In this document: one piece after another, positions 1,083 to 6,193 of the stretch
How positions within the stretch are numbered: the first letter of the stretch is position 1
Layout: each line of letters opens with the position of its first letter
Source of the DNA: a virus
Length of the DNA stretch: 36,344 nt
Direction: 5' to 3' (one strand)
IMG/VR virus record: IMGVR_UViG_3300010370_000103
Coordinates: 1-36,344 of that record
The notes under the pieces: generated by a model
Database searches by the model: none
Told to the model about the DNA's origin: nothing
What the model saw: the letters and a program-made list of their open reading frames with translations, nothing else
Position numbers and translations under genes: made by a program

Positions 1083-1090
1083 TTATTTAG
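1083..1090 (-). promoter_or_regulatory. Late promoter box CTAAATAA
   Basis: The minus strand reads CTAAATAA 22 nt upstream of the ATG at 1061. It resembles the T4 late box TATAAATA. The same box recurs in front of other units in this window (19695-19702; CTAAATAG at 4726-4733 and 7342-7349), which supports it as the local late promoter form. It lies back-to-back with a plus-strand copy at 1103-1110. Confidence 0.6.
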
Positions 1091-1102
1091 AACTTGGTAA
1101 AA

Positions 1103-1110
1103 CTAAATAC
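1103..1110 (+). promoter_or_regulatory. Late promoter box CTAAATAC for the exported cassette
   Basis: The plus strand reads CTAAATAC 22 nt upstream of the ATG at 1133. The spacing equals that of the minus-strand box at 1083-1090, so this is a divergent late promoter pair with only 12 bp between the boxes. It implies that the plus-strand cassette is expressed late, together with the structural genes. Confidence 0.55.
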
Positions 1111-1132
1111 ATCAGTCCCATACTCTATAAAA

Positions 1133-1627
1133 ATGAAAAGACTAATTTTAGCCTTTTCGTTATTCTTAACTACACCAGTCTTTGCAGGGGAAATCACCCA
1201 TAAGATTGTTGATTCGGTGCAACTAACTGTTGATGGTGCTGCGTCTGCTGCAACCAGAATCGGTTCTTCATATTCGGTAAGTGGAAGTAATATTGATGTT
1301 ACAACTTTGGGTGGTCTTACTGCTCCTGCAAGTGCCACTGCAGCAGCTACCCAAATTCAGGGTTCTTATGATGTAAATACTGCGGGTCAGGCATTCAGTT
1401 TTTCTGAATCCTTTACCGTTGGTGATGCTGTTTCCAATGGAACAACTGTAACCTCTGGTGTTGTGAGTTCTCTTCCTTCATTTGGAAGTGTAACTACTTC
1501 TTCTGGTGGTGTTGCTGGTTCCCTTGCTGGTTCTCTTTCTGCTACTGGTGTTCCTACCGTCACTGCTGGTGGTGCTGGAACTCAGGCAGTTGCTCAAAGA
1601 AGCGTTGAGTTGAGCGTATTTAAGTGA
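1133..1627 (+). CDS. Exported Ser/Thr/Gly-rich protein 1 (164 aa, signal peptide)
   Basis: The frame is open from a TTG at 1094, but the ATG at 1133 is chosen. It starts exactly at a Sec-type signal peptide (MKRLILAFSLFLTTPVFA, cleavage after residue 18), and the late promoter box lies upstream of it. The mature part is low in charge and rich in Ser, Thr, Val, Ala and Gly. It contains SYSVSGSNIDVTT near residues 47-58 and GQAFSFSESFT near 85-95. The next gene has the same two blocks (SYTVTGTNIDV and AAFQFSES), so the two look like diverged tandem copies. The stop codon overlaps the GTG start of gene 2 (GTGA). No known family was recognised. It is probably exported to the cell envelope late in infection; its role is unknown. 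Confidence 0.8.
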   Translation: MKRLILAFSLFLTTPVFAGEITHKIVDSVQLTVDGAASAATRIGSSYSVSGSNIDVTTLGGLTAPASATAAATQIQGSYDVNTAGQAFSFSESFTVGDAVSNGTTVTSGVVSSLPSFGSVTTSSGGVAGSLAGSLSATGVPTVTAGGAGTQAVAQRSVELSVFK

Positions 1628-1986
1628 AATTTATAACTCCCGTTTTGATCGTATCTGCGGGACTTATAACTCCCGCGATGGCAGTACCAGTCACACCCAA
1701 CTTTACTAGTGGTACGATGACCTCCCATACGGAGTCAACAACAACGATAAATGAAACCATTCGTCAAATTGATTATCAAACAGGATGGAGTTACACAGTC
1801 ACAGGAACAAATATCGATGTTCCCTCAACACCACAAGTAGGAACACCCTATGCGATTATGGAAAATGGTGCGGCATTCCAGTTCTCGGAGAGTTATTCTG
1901 GGCCAGGAATGATTATGGATACAACTGTCAATCGCACAACTACCATAATGTCGGTGACAGATACAACCTCCGTGTTCACCCAATAA
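1624..1986 (+). CDS. Exported Thr-rich protein 2 (120 aa, signal peptide), paralogue of gene 1
   Basis: It starts with GTG at 1624, in a 4-base GTGA overlap with the stop of the upstream gene, which suggests coupled translation. A signal peptide covers residues 1-20 (MKFITPVLIVSAGLITPAMA). The mature protein is about 100 aa and Thr-rich, with NFTSGTMTSHTESTTT near residues 26-41, SYTVTGTNIDV at 56-66 and AAFQFSES at 83-90, and it ends TTSVFTQ. The NIDV and FSES blocks match the upstream gene, so I infer a duplication. From memory, proteins of this kind (signal peptide followed by an NFTSG(S/T)MTS-like start) occur in other marine cyanophages, without a known function. Confidence 0.8.
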   Translation: MKFITPVLIVSAGLITPAMAVPVTPNFTSGTMTSHTESTTTINETIRQIDYQTGWSYTVTGTNIDVPSTPQVGTPYAIMENGAAFQFSESYSGPGMIMDTTVNRTTTIMSVTDTTSVFTQ

Positions 1987-2708
1987 AATGTCTTCGCACA
2001 ATAGCATCCATCCTTGTCCTAGGTGCCTTTGTGACCCCTGTACATGCGGAAGGGGATACTCCAATCACTGCGGTTGCCAATCCACAGGCAACTTCAACAG
2101 GAAGTGTAACCAATCAAGCAGTGCAAGTGTTGCAAGGACCCTACGTTACCAATTCTTACGGTGGTGGCGTAAGTTGTCAAGGCCCAACATTTAATCTAAC
2201 ACCATTTCTCACAACCACTAATAGTGGTCAAACTCCTTTTGAAGATTATGCTGATATTGATAATGATCCAACAACGCCTCCAGAGAGAACTGGTCAAAAG
2301 AATAACTGGGCAAAAAACTTTGGTATTTCTGGCACAATCTCAATCCCCTTAGACGGGGGATTGCAGGAACGTTGTAAGTCATCAGCAGAAGTATGGACTA
2401 ATCGACAGAAGGCGGAGACTGATAAGGCACGTCTCGATTTCGAACTCGTCCGCCTCTTGAAATGCGGGGAAGCCATGAAGGCAGGAATTCATTTTCATCC
2501 TCAGTCTCCGTATGCAAAGATTTGTGCAGACGTTGTTGTTGTTCCCAGTGGAGGTACTGTTCCTTCTTCTGTATCTTCAATTCCTTCTGGAAAGTCTTTA
2601 CGATCTTCTTCTTCAAATCCAACTGGGCAGCGAAGTCAACCTGTAACTCATAAGGCGTCAGGTCTTGGTGGAGCCGTTTCTTTGCCTGAACGTACACCTG
2701 TTGAATAA
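1983..2708 (+). CDS. Exported protein 3 (241 aa, signal peptide, four Cys), apparent ATA start
   Basis: The frame contains a clear signal peptide that begins at the ATA codon 1983-1985 (read as MKCLRTIASILVLGAFVTPV, then HA, cleavage near residue 22). Between the upstream in-frame ATG at 1785 and this point there is no ATG, GTG, TTG or CTG in frame. The ATA overlaps the stop of gene 2 as ATAA, mirroring the GTGA overlap one gene earlier. The mature protein has Cys at 65, 131, 161 and 181. A charged helical stretch covers residues 135-166 (AEVWTNRQKAETDKARLDFE and onward), followed by GIHFHPQSPYAKICADV at 168-184. Residues from about 189 on are Ser/Pro-rich and lie opposite the 265-aa minus-strand gene, so the true C-terminus is less certain. 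No known function. Confidence 0.68.
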   Translation: MKCLRTIASILVLGAFVTPVHAEGDTPITAVANPQATSTGSVTNQAVQVLQGPYVTNSYGGGVSCQGPTFNLTPFLTTTNSGQTPFEDYADIDNDPTTPPERTGQKNNWAKNFGISGTISIPLDGGLQERCKSSAEVWTNRQKAETDKARLDFELVRLLKCGEAMKAGIHFHPQSPYAKICADVVVVPSGGTVPSSVSSIPSGKSLRSSSSNPTGQRSQPVTHKASGLGGAVSLPERTPVE

Positions 2709-3195
2709 TAGGTTTCATTTTCTTTACCATCCATTCCACCATTGACTTGCCAACAATAGCCGCAGCAACGGAAGCAGTAGCAGTAGTCCCAGCAAGAATA
2801 ACTTGTTCTTTAGGGGGAACTGGGACTTCTCCGATGAAGGGTACTTCAATTACAGGCACTCCTAAATTTGTTGTTGATGGTGGTGGAACTACCTCCTGAG
2901 TGCTAGGGGTTTGAACTGCTGGTGGTAGTTGAGGGGTAGTAGGAGGAGGAAGTTGTCTAGACTTCTCCTCAGTTTCTTCTTTCTTTTCTTCGTTCTGTCG
3001 TTGACCCTCAACCATCTGTTTCCATTGTTCCGTTGTTGGAACATCAATTGGTTCATAATAAGGAAGTTCAGCAGTAGGAACTTGAACTACAGGTTTCTGT
3101 AGAGTTCTTATTGATGGTATCAAGACAACAGGTGGTTCTAATCTACGAACAACTGGAACCTCAACTTCTTGAACTTGTATCTCTGGAATTTCCAT
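2398..3195 (-). CDS. Proline-rich protein with hydrophobic segment (265 aa)
   Basis: It starts 5 nt after the gp16 stop and is probably co-transcribed with it. The N-terminal half (residues 1-130) is rich in Pro, Val and Glu, with a charged stretch at 60-80 (KQMVEGQRQNEEKKEETEEK). Residues 131-157 form an Ala/Val-rich hydrophobic segment (VILAGTTATASVAAAIVGK) that could cross a membrane or pack in a coiled bundle. A basic, helical, Lys/Gln-rich tail follows (residues 160-225). The last 103 codons overlap the exported gene 3 on the other strand; residues after about 225 may be only the shadow of that gene. No family recognised. In T4, gp17 (large terminase) would be expected directly after gp16, and this protein does not resemble it. 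Confidence 0.75.
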   Translation of the reverse strand: MEIPEIQVQEVEVPVVRRLEPPVVLIPSIRTLQKPVVQVPTAELPYYEPIDVPTTEQWKQMVEGQRQNEEKKEETEEKSRQLPPPTTPQLPPAVQTPSTQEVVPPPSTTNLGVPVIEVPFIGEVPVPPKEQVILAGTTATASVAAAIVGKSMVEWMVKKMKPIIQQVYVQAKKRLHQDLTPYELQVDFAAQLDLKKKIVKTFQKELKIQKKEQYLHWEQQQRLHKSLHTETEDENEFLPSWLPRISRGGRVRNRDVPYQSPPSVD

Positions 3196-3200
3196 TCATT

Positions 3201-3620
3201 CTAATCATCCAACTTTCCTTTCTTCAATAACTTTTGGAGTTCGGCTGTTGATCCAACAAAAAGTGCGTTTGTCACATTACTTGGACCTTTCTCCTTAGGA
3301 TCTTCAATATCTCTCATCTTCTTTTGGAGATCCAACAACTTGTCAGTTGCGTCCGCTACACTCTTGATCAACTGACCAGTGACTTCATAAGCCCTTGCAG
3401 ATCCTTGTTCTTGGGAAATTTCCATTATCCCATCAATGGCCTCCTGACCTTTTTCGATCAACGAATACAACTGACCTCTTGTGTATTCGTAATCTCTTCT
3501 TAGGTCTGGTTTTTCTTCTCTTGATTTTGGGAGTGAAACATCGCCGCTAATAGGGGCAATCTCACTGCATCCATCATCTTTAAGAATGTCAAGTGCTTTC
3601 CCGATATCATCAAACGCCAT
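3201..3620 (-). CDS. gp16: Small terminase subunit gp16 (139 aa)
   Basis: This is the DNA-recognition subunit of the packaging motor, which works with the large terminase gp17. The layout and several blocks match T4 gp16 (164 aa). An acidic N-terminus is followed by DLRRDYEYTRGQLYSLIEKG (residues 39-58), corresponding to the T4 PDLEDDYGVVRRN region. Two long helices follow, with LIKSVADATDKLLDLQKKMRD aligned to the T4 TNKEILKLHKDMKDI region. The end (NVTNALFVGSTAELQKLL) matches T4 NATVFMGSPTELMD. The ATG is preceded by a purine-rich AGGAA at 3626-3630. It lies 15 nt downstream of gp15. The large subunit is not next in line. Confidence 0.9.
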   Translation of the reverse strand: MAFDDIGKALDILKDDGCSEIAPISGDVSLPKSREEKPDLRRDYEYTRGQLYSLIEKGQEAIDGIMEISQEQGSARAYEVTGQLIKSVADATDKLLDLQKKMRDIEDPKEKGPSNVTNALFVGSTAELQKLLKKGKLDD

Positions 3621-3635
3621 TTCTGTTCCTCACTA

Positions 3636-4715
3636 TTAAACATCAGTTCCTTGTGATGGGGAATAAGTCTTATAATCCTGATAGAAAGATATCAACTCAT
3701 TAAATCCAAAATCATCGCCAGACACAATAAGAGCATCGTCGCCTGTAAGTGGTAAGGATGCATCTCTAGATCCACTAATAATATCTATAAGAGATCCAGC
3801 AGTATGATCAGATACGGTAGTTCCATCAACTCCTCTGTAAACGGTGACATTATTTCCGCTGATGGAACGGATCTGCATATTCTCGCTATCAATAACAATG
3901 TAATCGTCAACGCTAAATCCTGATGCATCGTTCACTGACATTTGAGTTTGTTCTGCAGTAAAATCTGCGTTAATAGCCGTTGTGTTATCGTCATTATAAT
4001 CTTTAATTGCTCTTGGAGTTGCAGCATATCTTTGTACTCTTTTTGCAGAAACTCTATTAGAATCATCAAAATAATCAACCTGAACTCTCTTAATAAGACC
4101 ATCCGAATTATCGGCAATTTTACCAAAGAGGTAGGTTTTTGCAGTAAATGTTAATGTGGAAATCATCGCACGACGATTATCAAAACTTCCCTCATAATCA
4201 TCGGTCATATTAATGTTCTCAAGAATAATTGGAACATCTCTTTTTTCACCAATGGAAGAGACGAGATTAATAGTAATATTTAAACCAGGTTGAAAATATG
4301 GAAGAATTTGTTCCAGAATCTGCAACATATCATCATTTAACTTTGTTGCGATACTAAGTTGGAAAGAAATATTATAGGGAACTGGCATATAAACTTTTTT
4401 CAAGTTTGATGATGCACCAGTTCCACAAGTTTTAAAGGTCTGTGTTATAGAAGCCTTTCTGGATGAATCATAAGAAATGCCTGTCATTTCAAACGACATA
4501 CGTGGCAAAGTGATCGCAGGTCTTCCTTTTAATGATGGTTGTTGTTCAATTTTAGCCAAAAACTTTTGCATTGGCCCATAAGCCAAAGGCACTTTCATTG
4601 TACTTTGAACACTATTATTATCATCAGAGTGACGTACTTCAATATCATTGAATAATGTGCCAAAACCAATTACGGTTTTTCTCAAAATTTCGTGGTAAAA
4701 ATATGATCCTAACAT
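3636..4715 (-). CDS. gp15: Tail sheath stabiliser / tail terminator gp15 with inserted module (359 aa)
   Basis: gp15 forms the ring that caps the tail tube and sheath and joins the tail to the neck. The match to T4 gp15 (272 aa) is clear: an N-terminal GSYFYHEILRKTVIGFGTLF with the T4-like FYxxxxR pattern; KVPLAYGPMQKFL at 41-53; and LSIATKLNDDMLQILEQILP with YFQPGLN just after (120-146), near-identical to T4 LSIFTRYEDDMFQIVEQILP. RDVPIILENINMTDDYEG follows. The protein is about 87 residues longer than T4 gp15. The extra part includes residues 250-313, an unrelated repeat module (MSVNDASGFSVDDYIVIDSE, then TVYRGVDGTTVSDHTAGSLI) that also occurs in the two giant baseplate proteins. A late promoter box lies 11-18 nt upstream. 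Confidence 0.93.
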   Translation of the reverse strand: MLGSYFYHEILRKTVIGFGTLFNDIEVRHSDDNNSVQSTMKVPLAYGPMQKFLAKIEQQPSLKGRPAITLPRMSFEMTGISYDSSRKASITQTFKTCGTGASSNLKKVYMPVPYNISFQLSIATKLNDDMLQILEQILPYFQPGLNITINLVSSIGEKRDVPIILENINMTDDYEGSFDNRRAMISTLTFTAKTYLFGKIADNSDGLIKRVQVDYFDDSNRVSAKRVQRYAATPRAIKDYNDDNTTAINADFTAEQTQMSVNDASGFSVDDYIVIDSENMQIRSISGNNVTVYRGVDGTTVSDHTAGSLIDIISGSRDASLPLTGDDALIVSGDDFGFNELISFYQDYKTYSPSQGTDV

Positions 4716-4725
4716 TGTTTTTTAC

Positions 4726-4733
4726 CTATTTAG
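4726..4733 (-). promoter_or_regulatory. Late promoter box CTAAATAG overlapping the gp14 stop
   Basis: The minus strand reads TTTCTAAATAGG just upstream of the gp15 ATG (4715). The TAA stop codon of gp14 (4730-4732) lies inside the box. The same arrangement is seen at 7342-7349 and 19695-19702. Confidence 0.55.
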
Positions 4734-6193
4734 AAATTACCAAAAGGATTTGTCTCACTGAAGTCAACAATACCACCATCAGCAGCGTTCTCAATGGGAA
4801 TATTTTCTGCATAATCATCATATAGATCGTCATATTGAATAACCTTAACAGAATATCTTCCTGTTGTACCAATACCAGGGTGACTTACTGTCGTTGCACT
4901 ACCAACGATAATTTCTCCAAGAGCAAAGTTTCCAGAAAGATTGGAAATCTTGAGAATTCTATTTTTACTATCCCAAGACTTAACACGAGCAGTAGAAAGT
5001 GAACTCTCTCCAGTAATAACTTCATTGAGTACAAAGTTACCAGTACCAACACCAGAACCAGAAGCGGATGGAGCTGCGATTGTAATTGTTGGTGCCACGG
5101 TGTATCCAAATCCAGCATTACTAAATCTAAGTCCAGAAATGGTTCCTGCAGCACTTACAACAGCAACAGCAGTAGCATTTGCAGTAGAGAGACCAGCTGG
5201 TGAAGTTGAGATAGAGACAACTGGTGCAGTGGTGTATTGAGAACCACCAGTCAAGAATCCAACAGCATCACCTCTAATGTATACAACACCCATCGATCCA
5301 ATACCAGCCCTAGCCTGTGCCCCAGACCCGCCAGCACCACTGAAAGTGATTGTTGGAGGTTGTGTATAGCCATAACCAGGATTGGTAATCAAAACTTGTT
5401 TAATAGAATAGGTAGTAGATCCTGCACCAGAGTTACTTGTTGTAATAGCGACTGCTGTTGCGTTAGCTTCAACTGCACCATCAGGAGAAGTTGAAATTGC
5501 AACAGTAGGTGGACTACTATATCCATATCCATCATTAATAAGGATAATTTGGTTGACTGCACCTGTGTAAATTCCTGTAGATGCAACTGCGGTTACACCA
5601 ATACCCGCCAAAGTAAGAGTTGCGATATATCCCAAATCCTCAACGTTATCATCTATTTCTTCAATAGTTGTATCGATAACTTCATCCTCATATTCAAATA
5701 ACTCACACTTGAGTTCATACATGAATAACTTACCAAGTTGATAGAATGGGTTTTCATGTTCTACAAATTTGATTTCGAATAAACTATCGGATAGTGGGAA
5801 GTATATTAAATCACCCTCTTTCGGTCTAGGTAATCCATAATTTTTAACTCCAGTCACACTATTAGTATCGGCAATTTGAAATCCAGTAATGAAATCCTCA
5901 AATCTTTCTTGAGAAATTACAAGTGTTAATTCATCTGTTGTTCTGATGCCAAACTTGGTCATCAAGTCCCCAGAACCCTGAAAACCCTCATAATTTTGAA
6001 CATAGGCCTCAATAATAAAATTATCTGTAAATCTTGCTAAGACGTTTTCCTTTATGATAGTTTTGGTGCCCAAATATTCTCTGGGCATGTAATAAATCTC
6101 AACCCCAAACATTCTCAACTGTTCGTTGATGAGATCTTGAATTAATCTTTGTTCCGATGCGGAACCTTGTTGAAAGAAAGGATTAAGAGCCAT
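4730..6193 (-). CDS. gp14: Neck protein gp14 with large inserted beta-repeat region (487 aa)
   Basis: gp14 makes, with gp13, the neck to which head, tail and whiskers attach. The N-terminal 170 residues match T4 gp14: LINEQLRMFGVEIYYMPREY (21-40) against T4 ESIQMRGVECYYVPREY, then NYEGFQGSGDLMTKFGI (67-83) against T4 SFEGYEGAKSFFSNFGM, then TDELTLVIS. T4 gp14 is 256 aa. Here about 250 residues (roughly 195-445) are added, made of four copies of a beta repeat with the pattern I-x-(D/N)-x-G-(Y/F)-G-Y-x-x-x-P-T (for example INDGYGYSSPPTVAIS, ITNPGYGYTQPPTITF, SNAGFGYTVAPTITIA). The C-terminus (ADGGIVDFSETNPFGNF) looks like part of the core again. The start overlaps the gp13 stop by one base (TAATG). 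Confidence 0.93.
   Translation of the reverse strand: MALNPFFQQGSASEQRLIQDLINEQLRMFGVEIYYMPREYLGTKTIIKENVLARFTDNFIIEAYVQNYEGFQGSGDLMTKFGIRTTDELTLVISQERFEDFITGFQIADTNSVTGVKNYGLPRPKEGDLIYFPLSDSLFEIKFVEHENPFYQLGKLFMYELKCELFEYEDEVIDTTIEEIDDNVEDLGYIATLTLAGIGVTAVASTGIYTGAVNQIILINDGYGYSSPPTVAISTSPDGAVEANATAVAITTSNSGAGSTTYSIKQVLITNPGYGYTQPPTITFSGAGGSGAQARAGIGSMGVVYIRGDAVGFLTGGSQYTTAPVVSISTSPAGLSTANATAVAVVSAAGTISGLRFSNAGFGYTVAPTITIAAPSASGSGVGTGNFVLNEVITGESSLSTARVKSWDSKNRILKISNLSGNFALGEIIVGSATTVSHPGIGTTGRYSVKVIQYDDLYDDYAENIPIENAADGGIVDFSETNPFGNF

Follow-up and report, generated by a model that had tools for sequence, protein, structure and literature searches.

The outer-membrane step of lysis is supplied in other phages by spanins. 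Two-component spanins, exemplified by Rz/Rz1 and by gp18.5/18.7 of T7, pair an outer-membrane lipoprotein that has a lipobox (o-spanin) with a type II protein of the inner membrane that has a periplasmic coiled coil (i-spanin); in two of the three known architectures, their genes are embedded or overlap out of frame. The unimolecular spanin combines an N-terminal lipobox and a C-terminal transmembrane domain (TMD) in a single protein. A spanin survey found none in 20 phages isolated on Prochlorococcus or Synechococcus and raised the question of whether an outer-membrane step is needed at all for those phages (Kongari 2018, PMC6139136). In cyanomyoviruses, T4-GC 218, 219, 234, 235, and 237 have been described as a possibly mobile hypothetical cluster with no function assigned, present in all phages of that study except S-PM2 (Sullivan 2010, PMC3037559).

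Here, we analyze a three-gene cassette in a 36,344-base virus record; this whole stretch of DNA is referred to as the window. Most of the families concerned are already known as the mobile cluster of Sullivan 2010—gene 1 is T4-GC 237, gene 3 is T4-GC 235, a partner gene is T4-GC 234, and DUF6450 is T4-GC 218—to which T7-like phages, an internal start in the −1 frame, a holin-like member, and a linkage to lysozyme are added here. It is new that the proline-rich partner with one transmembrane (TM) segment and, in relatives, the two-TM DUF6450 protein also belong to the unit; that T7-like cyanophages have the set in the slot of the T7 holin, with tail fibres on one side and terminase on the other; and that lysozyme lies upstream of DUF6450 in freshwater T4-like phages, with at least 16 carriers on the spanin-less list. 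The cassette resembles two-component spanins in its exported/membrane protein pair, in an out-of-frame overlap (the start of gene 3 lies within gene 2), in the proximity of holin-like and endolysin genes in cassette relatives, and in the proposed outer-membrane task. In contrast to them, it features no lipobox lipoprotein, no recognised i-spanin, and no sequence match. Compared with the unimolecular spanin, the partner has a C-proximal TMD but no N-terminal lipobox.

Organization and distribution of the cassette

The window harbors T4-like neck, sheath-stabiliser, terminase, and baseplate genes. Gene 1 (1133–1627, 164 aa, ATG start), gene 2 (1624–1986, 120 aa, GTG start), and gene 3 (1785–2708, 307 aa, ATG start) reside on the plus strand and the other long open reading frames of the window on the minus strand, as the initial annotation had stated. 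Its description of the three genes as chained by stop/start overlaps holds for genes 1 and 2, which share a 4-bp GTGA overlap, and fails for genes 2 and 3, which overlap by 202 bp. A further conserved gene, absent from that annotation, is the partner (2398–3195, minus strand; phrog_9426/phrog_570), which converges on gene 3 and overlaps it by 311 bp. Next to it lies the terminase small subunit gene (TerS; 3201–3620, minus strand; phrog_445, E 3.5e-49), a neighbour outside the module. Within the tail-to-tail overlap of gene 3 and partner (2398–2708), the non-conserved tail of each gene covers part of the conserved region of the other, and similar overlaps of about 300 bp occur in freshwater relatives, e.g., L008 and L009. 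At 3636–6193 on the minus strand, additional regions occur in the gp15-like as well as the neck proteins; their best matches are families of tail fibres, baseplates, and virion structural proteins.

None of the three proteins had been seen to match a known holin, spanin, or endolysin. They are no orphans: all three belong to large cyanophage families, the function of which is, as had been proposed, uncharacterised. Gene 1 matches phrog_564 (E 2e-40) and is labelled 'OMP1' in some records, among them S-RSM2, where it lies beside psbA; gene 2 matches phrog_650 (E 8e-35) and the Pfam family PF19847 (DUF6322; 70.7 bits, cut-off 30.6); and gene 3 matches phrog_848/1755 (E 4e-72 for phrog_848). In the P-SSM2 and P-SSM4 records, genes 1, 2, and 3 are annotated as T4-GC 237, 236, and 235, respectively. 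By tblastn, gene 3 was matched in 445 phage records, gene 2 in 319, and gene 1 in 195, all named as cyanophages, marine single-cell viruses, or uncultured phages. Conserved co-occurrence in related phages, proposed earlier as a check, was found: the order 1-2-3 is kept across 160 loci anchored on T4-like gene 3. The structural gene block, in which the cassette had been placed, is not inherently its site: it moves as a unit in relatives, where psbA, hsp20, talC, or TerS are its neighbours. The cassette is a widely conserved, real envelope module of cyanophages.

A host origin of gene 3 was considered and rejected. Its 17 matches in genome_contigs all keep the phage module order and are most likely phage contigs for that reason; no free-standing host copy was seen among them. 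The cyanophage module also occurs in contigs L257–L260, L265–L268, L271, and L272, which are filed as Bacteroidetes, Nonlabens, an archaeon, and others; these probably come from phages and were misbinned in the genomes concerned or contaminate them.

Late-type boxes upstream of gene 1

The genes had been proposed to start from a late-type box placed back-to-back with one on the other strand. Two back-to-back CTAAATA boxes (1084–1109) do sit between gene 1 and the divergent gene, one per strand, at 1103–1109 on the plus and 1090–1084 on the minus strand. At gene 1, the late box in its exact T4/S-PM2 form, (N)ATAAATA, is not present, and it occurs twice in the window against 10 expected. Upstream of gene 1 in 90 unique relatives, TAAATA was found in 76 (14 expected), CTAAATA in 44 (2 expected), and ATAAATA in 30 (5.4 expected), expectations being derived from mononucleotide shuffling; in 44 of the 90, a TAAATA box is found on the opposite strand, too. 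This recurrent box closely resembles NATAAATA, which PMC2984593 cites as the late box of S-PM2.

Export signals and relatedness of genes 1 and 2

Of the three signal peptides assigned by the initial annotation, those of gene 1 (MKRLILAFSLFLTTPVFA↓G, ending VFA↓G) and gene 2 (...LITPAMA↓V) stand, and gene 3 has no simple N-terminal signal peptide in this lineage. A home-made rule for signal peptides was passed by all 101 unique gene 1 and all 177 unique gene 2 relatives. No lipobox was found in genes 1–3, the signals ending VFA↓G, AMA↓V, and VHA↓E without a cysteine at +1. Genes 1 and 2, suspected earlier to be tandem duplicates, are diverged tandem paralogues: the blocks NIDV and F-x-FSES are common to both, and hhalign matches the profiles of their families (probability 93.6%, E 2e-7, 61 columns). 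Gene 1 is missing from the T7-like version of the cassette.

The predicted structure of the gene 2 protein is a long two-stranded beta-hairpin with strands of about 24 residues (pLDDT 85, pTM 0.38). Foldseek gave weak PDB matches for it (best E 0.008), some of them tail knobs of phages and others the stems of pore-forming proteins, the hairpin being about equally like tail-knob/collar hairpins (Andhra, E 0.008; P68, TMq 0.40) and pore stems; pore formation is therefore put forward as a suggestion. Confident viral matches of the model are mostly unnamed or cyanophage proteins.

An internal start and a conserved domain in gene 3

In gene 3, a hydrophobic segment with a cleavage-like site, KCLRTIASILVLGAFVTPVHA↓E (V-x-A↓E, here VHA↓E), is preceded by an N-tail of about 65 residues. 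There is no ATG, GTG, or TTG at this signal-like segment, where codon 1974 is GTT, and in many T4-like relatives the gene 3 frame lacks a start codon at this place, too. The conserved start is ATG 1785, located inside gene 2 in the −1 frame, and each of the T4-like lineages without a start at the signal segment has an upstream ATG in the −1 frame of gene 2. This internal ATG is built from a gene 2 codon ending in A and a Trp codon. The position of the Trp in gene 2 varies between lineages, and still the wobble base before it is A throughout three T4-like groups (13/13, 18/18, and, with two exceptions, 59/61 unique sequences of gene 2, counted with kinship ignored). Because several sites are equally invariant in both freshwater groups, the marine group carries this test; there, the wobble site ranks second of 59 four-fold sites, whose largest-base share averages 0.64. 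The PHROG profile of gene 3 reaches into the N-tail, and 67 of 68 T7-like relatives have an ATG, GTG, or TTG within the overlap of genes 2 and 3. A programmed −1 frameshift leading out of gene 2 to the gene 3 frame was also considered, since the signal segment has no start of its own. Inspection by eye of the sequences that were read revealed no slippery heptamer towards the gene 2 end, and the idea was dropped because the conserved in-frame ATGs account for the gene 3 frame.

In one freshwater group, the ATG of gene 3 directly follows the stop codon of gene 2 and opens a classical signal peptide, MKCLKIILALSVFTLPVYA↓EGDTP; gp31 of P-SCSP1u, its gene 3, has a classical signal peptide as well. 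Judging from these sequences, the gene 3 domain is likely to be exported across lineages. The simple signal-peptide rule recovers gene 3 in 88 of 196 relatives because the start is internal, and this count was left out as evidence for export in the present lineage. The conserved domain (about 2049–2543) contains four invariant cysteines, and the tail beyond it is not conserved. The model, poor overall (pLDDT 63.6), combines a beta part with a 42-residue helix (helix pLDDT about 80–88). A sequence search of the PDB and Foldseek for gene 3 gave nothing usable, and no convincing structural homologue was found. The N-tail, the hydrophobic segment, and the predicted 42-residue helix could fit an i-spanin, but the conserved signal-peptidase-like site suggests cleavage.

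The wider module and its link to lysis genes

In T4-like loci, the partner gene usually follows gene 3, on either strand, and DUF6450 lies beyond it. The partner encoded in the window has a proline-rich region and a single C-proximal hydrophobic segment (residues 131–149) with a basic side after it, and neither an N-terminal signal nor a lipobox. Of 281 partner relatives, 273 have a C-proximal TMD that is followed by more basic residues than precede it. In T7-like phages, 65 of 80 loci show the order partner, DUF6450, gene 2, gene 3, TerS, the rest having fewer members, and in P-SSP7 the set (gp42–45) lies between the tail fibres and TerS. In T7, the gp17.5 holin gene occupies the place between tail fibre and TerS. 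The divergent 37.9-kb P-SCSP1u keeps DUF6450, gene 2, and gene 3 in this order, with the partner flipped so that it converges on gene 3 as in the window. Loci anchored on DUF6450 give the same picture as those anchored on gene 3. The members thus stay together through such rearrangements, which argues for a joint function.

DUF6450 proteins range from 58 to 100 aa or more and end in a charged C-terminal tail. By a simple hydropathy rule, 232 of 237 have two hydrophobic segments, in line with the P-SSP7 record ('2 transmembrane regions predicted by TMHMM'). Small size, two hydrophobic segments, a charged tail, and the lysozyme upstream in freshwater relatives are likenesses to class II holins, from which DUF6450 differs in having only insignificant matches to named holin families (E 0.22–0.37; Pfam gives DUF6450 alone) and in not being encoded in the window fragment, where only chance-level scores were obtained. 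The 36-kb fragment contains no lysozyme gene either, and the phage itself would carry both DUF6450 and lysozyme elsewhere in its genome. By organism name, gene 3 and DUF6450 occur in near-equal numbers of records (445 and 444); both are present in Syn9, and neither was found in S-PM2, Syn5, or S-SZBM1, a matched distribution that could stem partly from common phage ancestry. S-CREM2 lacks gene 3 and has only a sub-threshold DUF6450 match.

In all 36 freshwater T4-like loci that have both DUF6450 and a PF00959 lysozyme gene, the lysozyme gene is upstream of DUF6450 on the same strand, the gap being within 150 bp in 28 of them. Twelve T7-like loci have lysozyme on the strand of gene 3, at 1.1–2.5 kb downstream of that gene. 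Among 80 marine T4-like loci, the flanks of up to 4 kb revealed no lysozyme. In the freshwater locus L036, the minus strand encodes, in this order, a C39 peptidase, lysozyme, DUF6450, a one-TM protein, an SNase, and the partner, which faces gene 3. At least 16 phages on the spanin-less list (Kongari 2018, PMC6139136) match module genes, yet S-PM2 and Syn5, listed there as well, are without the cassette. The module is not universal, given these two phages and S-CREM2 without gene 3.

Several further observations concern the surroundings of the module. The lysozyme and C39-type peptidase of L036 (4280–7080, minus strand) stand in tandem and have a similar N-terminal domain of about 50 residues. 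In L009 (7777–9357) and L003 (8043–9692), both on the minus strand, a protein of 526–549 aa with a signal-peptide-like N-terminus is encoded between lysozyme and DUF6450; it has no Pfam match in L009 and is labelled autotransporter-like in DSL-LC03. A 71-aa cyanophage protein near the cassette in L005 (8341–8556, minus strand), with one N-terminal TM segment, is annotated 'plasmid stability', a label that looks unreliable. In Syn5 (gp47–gp48; L091, 6393–6836), the cassette-free slot between tail fibre and TerS holds two uncharacterised proteins, one of 86 aa with an N-terminal hydrophobic stretch and a charged, helix-like rest, the other of 56 aa.

Possible roles of the module

The initial annotation had listed lysis, envelope change, superinfection exclusion, and virion decoration as possible functions, among which the evidence now favours lysis. 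We give a chance slightly above even to the reading that the cassette, the partner, and DUF6450 constitute a lysis/egress module of picocyanobacterial phages in which exported proteins do the outer-membrane step. Upon late transcription of the cassette, DUF6450—as a putative holin—and lysozyme would open the inner membrane and the peptidoglycan. The exported, probably oligomeric beta-hairpin proteins of genes 1 and 2 would act at the outer membrane, as would the exported gene 3 protein with its four conserved cysteines and long helix, and the proline-rich one-TM partner would perhaps couple these proteins to the inner membrane. In this manner, the module would supply the step that spanins supply in other phages. 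A more specific version, possible but doubtful, is a non-lipoprotein spanin replacement in which the hairpin proteins of genes 1 and 2 form outer-membrane pores or tubes and, acting with the proline-rich inner-membrane protein and gene 3, break through the outer membrane of the cyanobacterium.

It seems unlikely that the exported proteins instead coat or plug the outer membrane late in infection, modifying the envelope so as to block other phages or to protect released virions, with the linkage to lysis genes being incidental. Export and the late-type box would fit such a role, and the cassette shifts between sites and strands like accessory modules and lies beside psbA in some phages. However, genes 2 and 3, the partner, and DUF6450 are kept even in the 37.9-kb genome of P-SCSP1u, the families occur in very many records, unlike most exclusion genes, and the linkage extends to a holin-like gene and, in two phage types, to lysozyme. 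Slightly less probable still is a virion role, in which decoration, tail, or knob proteins with signal-like N-termini would be assembled. The likeness of the gene 2 hairpin to tail-knob and collar hairpins, about as close as that to pore stems, is consistent with it, as are the tail fibre genes adjoining the T7-like copies and the neck and tail genes by the cassette in the window. Against this stand the signal peptides of genes 1 and 2, which in every relative tested have a site like that of signal peptidase I, and the cryo-EM model of P-SCSP1u, which comprises gp19 as the only capsid protein and gp16, gp22, gp23, and gp28 in the portal-tail complex, whereas genes 2 and 3 are gp32 and gp31 of that phage. 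The virion tables of S-SZBM1 and S-CREM2 do not decide the matter because both phages lack gene 3.

The least probable role is an outer-membrane secretion or uptake channel serving infection rather than exit, as suggested by exported beta-rich proteins, the weak resemblance to pore stems that Foldseek gives for gene 2, and the csgG/csgF genes of pelagiphages (PMC7029224, PMC9599517); the linkage to holin-like and lysozyme genes speaks against it, and no substrate gene was recognised. CsgG/CsgF resemble the cassette proteins as exported envelope proteins of marine phages common to several phage families; they encode the curli pore, and a lysis role has also been proposed for them (PMC9004378). 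They differ in lacking homology to the cassette: genes 1–3 gave no CsgG/CsgF Pfam match, and a curli/CsgG relation was rejected.

The lysis/egress reading bears on outer-membrane breakage by Prochlorococcus and Synechococcus phages, a step for which the cassette is a concrete candidate: it occurs in several hundred phage records and with two unrelated tail types. For the cell exit of these spanin-less viruses, no better candidate has been put forward so far. If the spanin-replacement version is true, such a replacement would be spread over T4-like as well as T7-like phages that infect the most abundant photosynthetic cells. The lysis/egress reading would also give a function to the DUF6322, DUF6450, phrog_564, phrog_848, and phrog_570 families.
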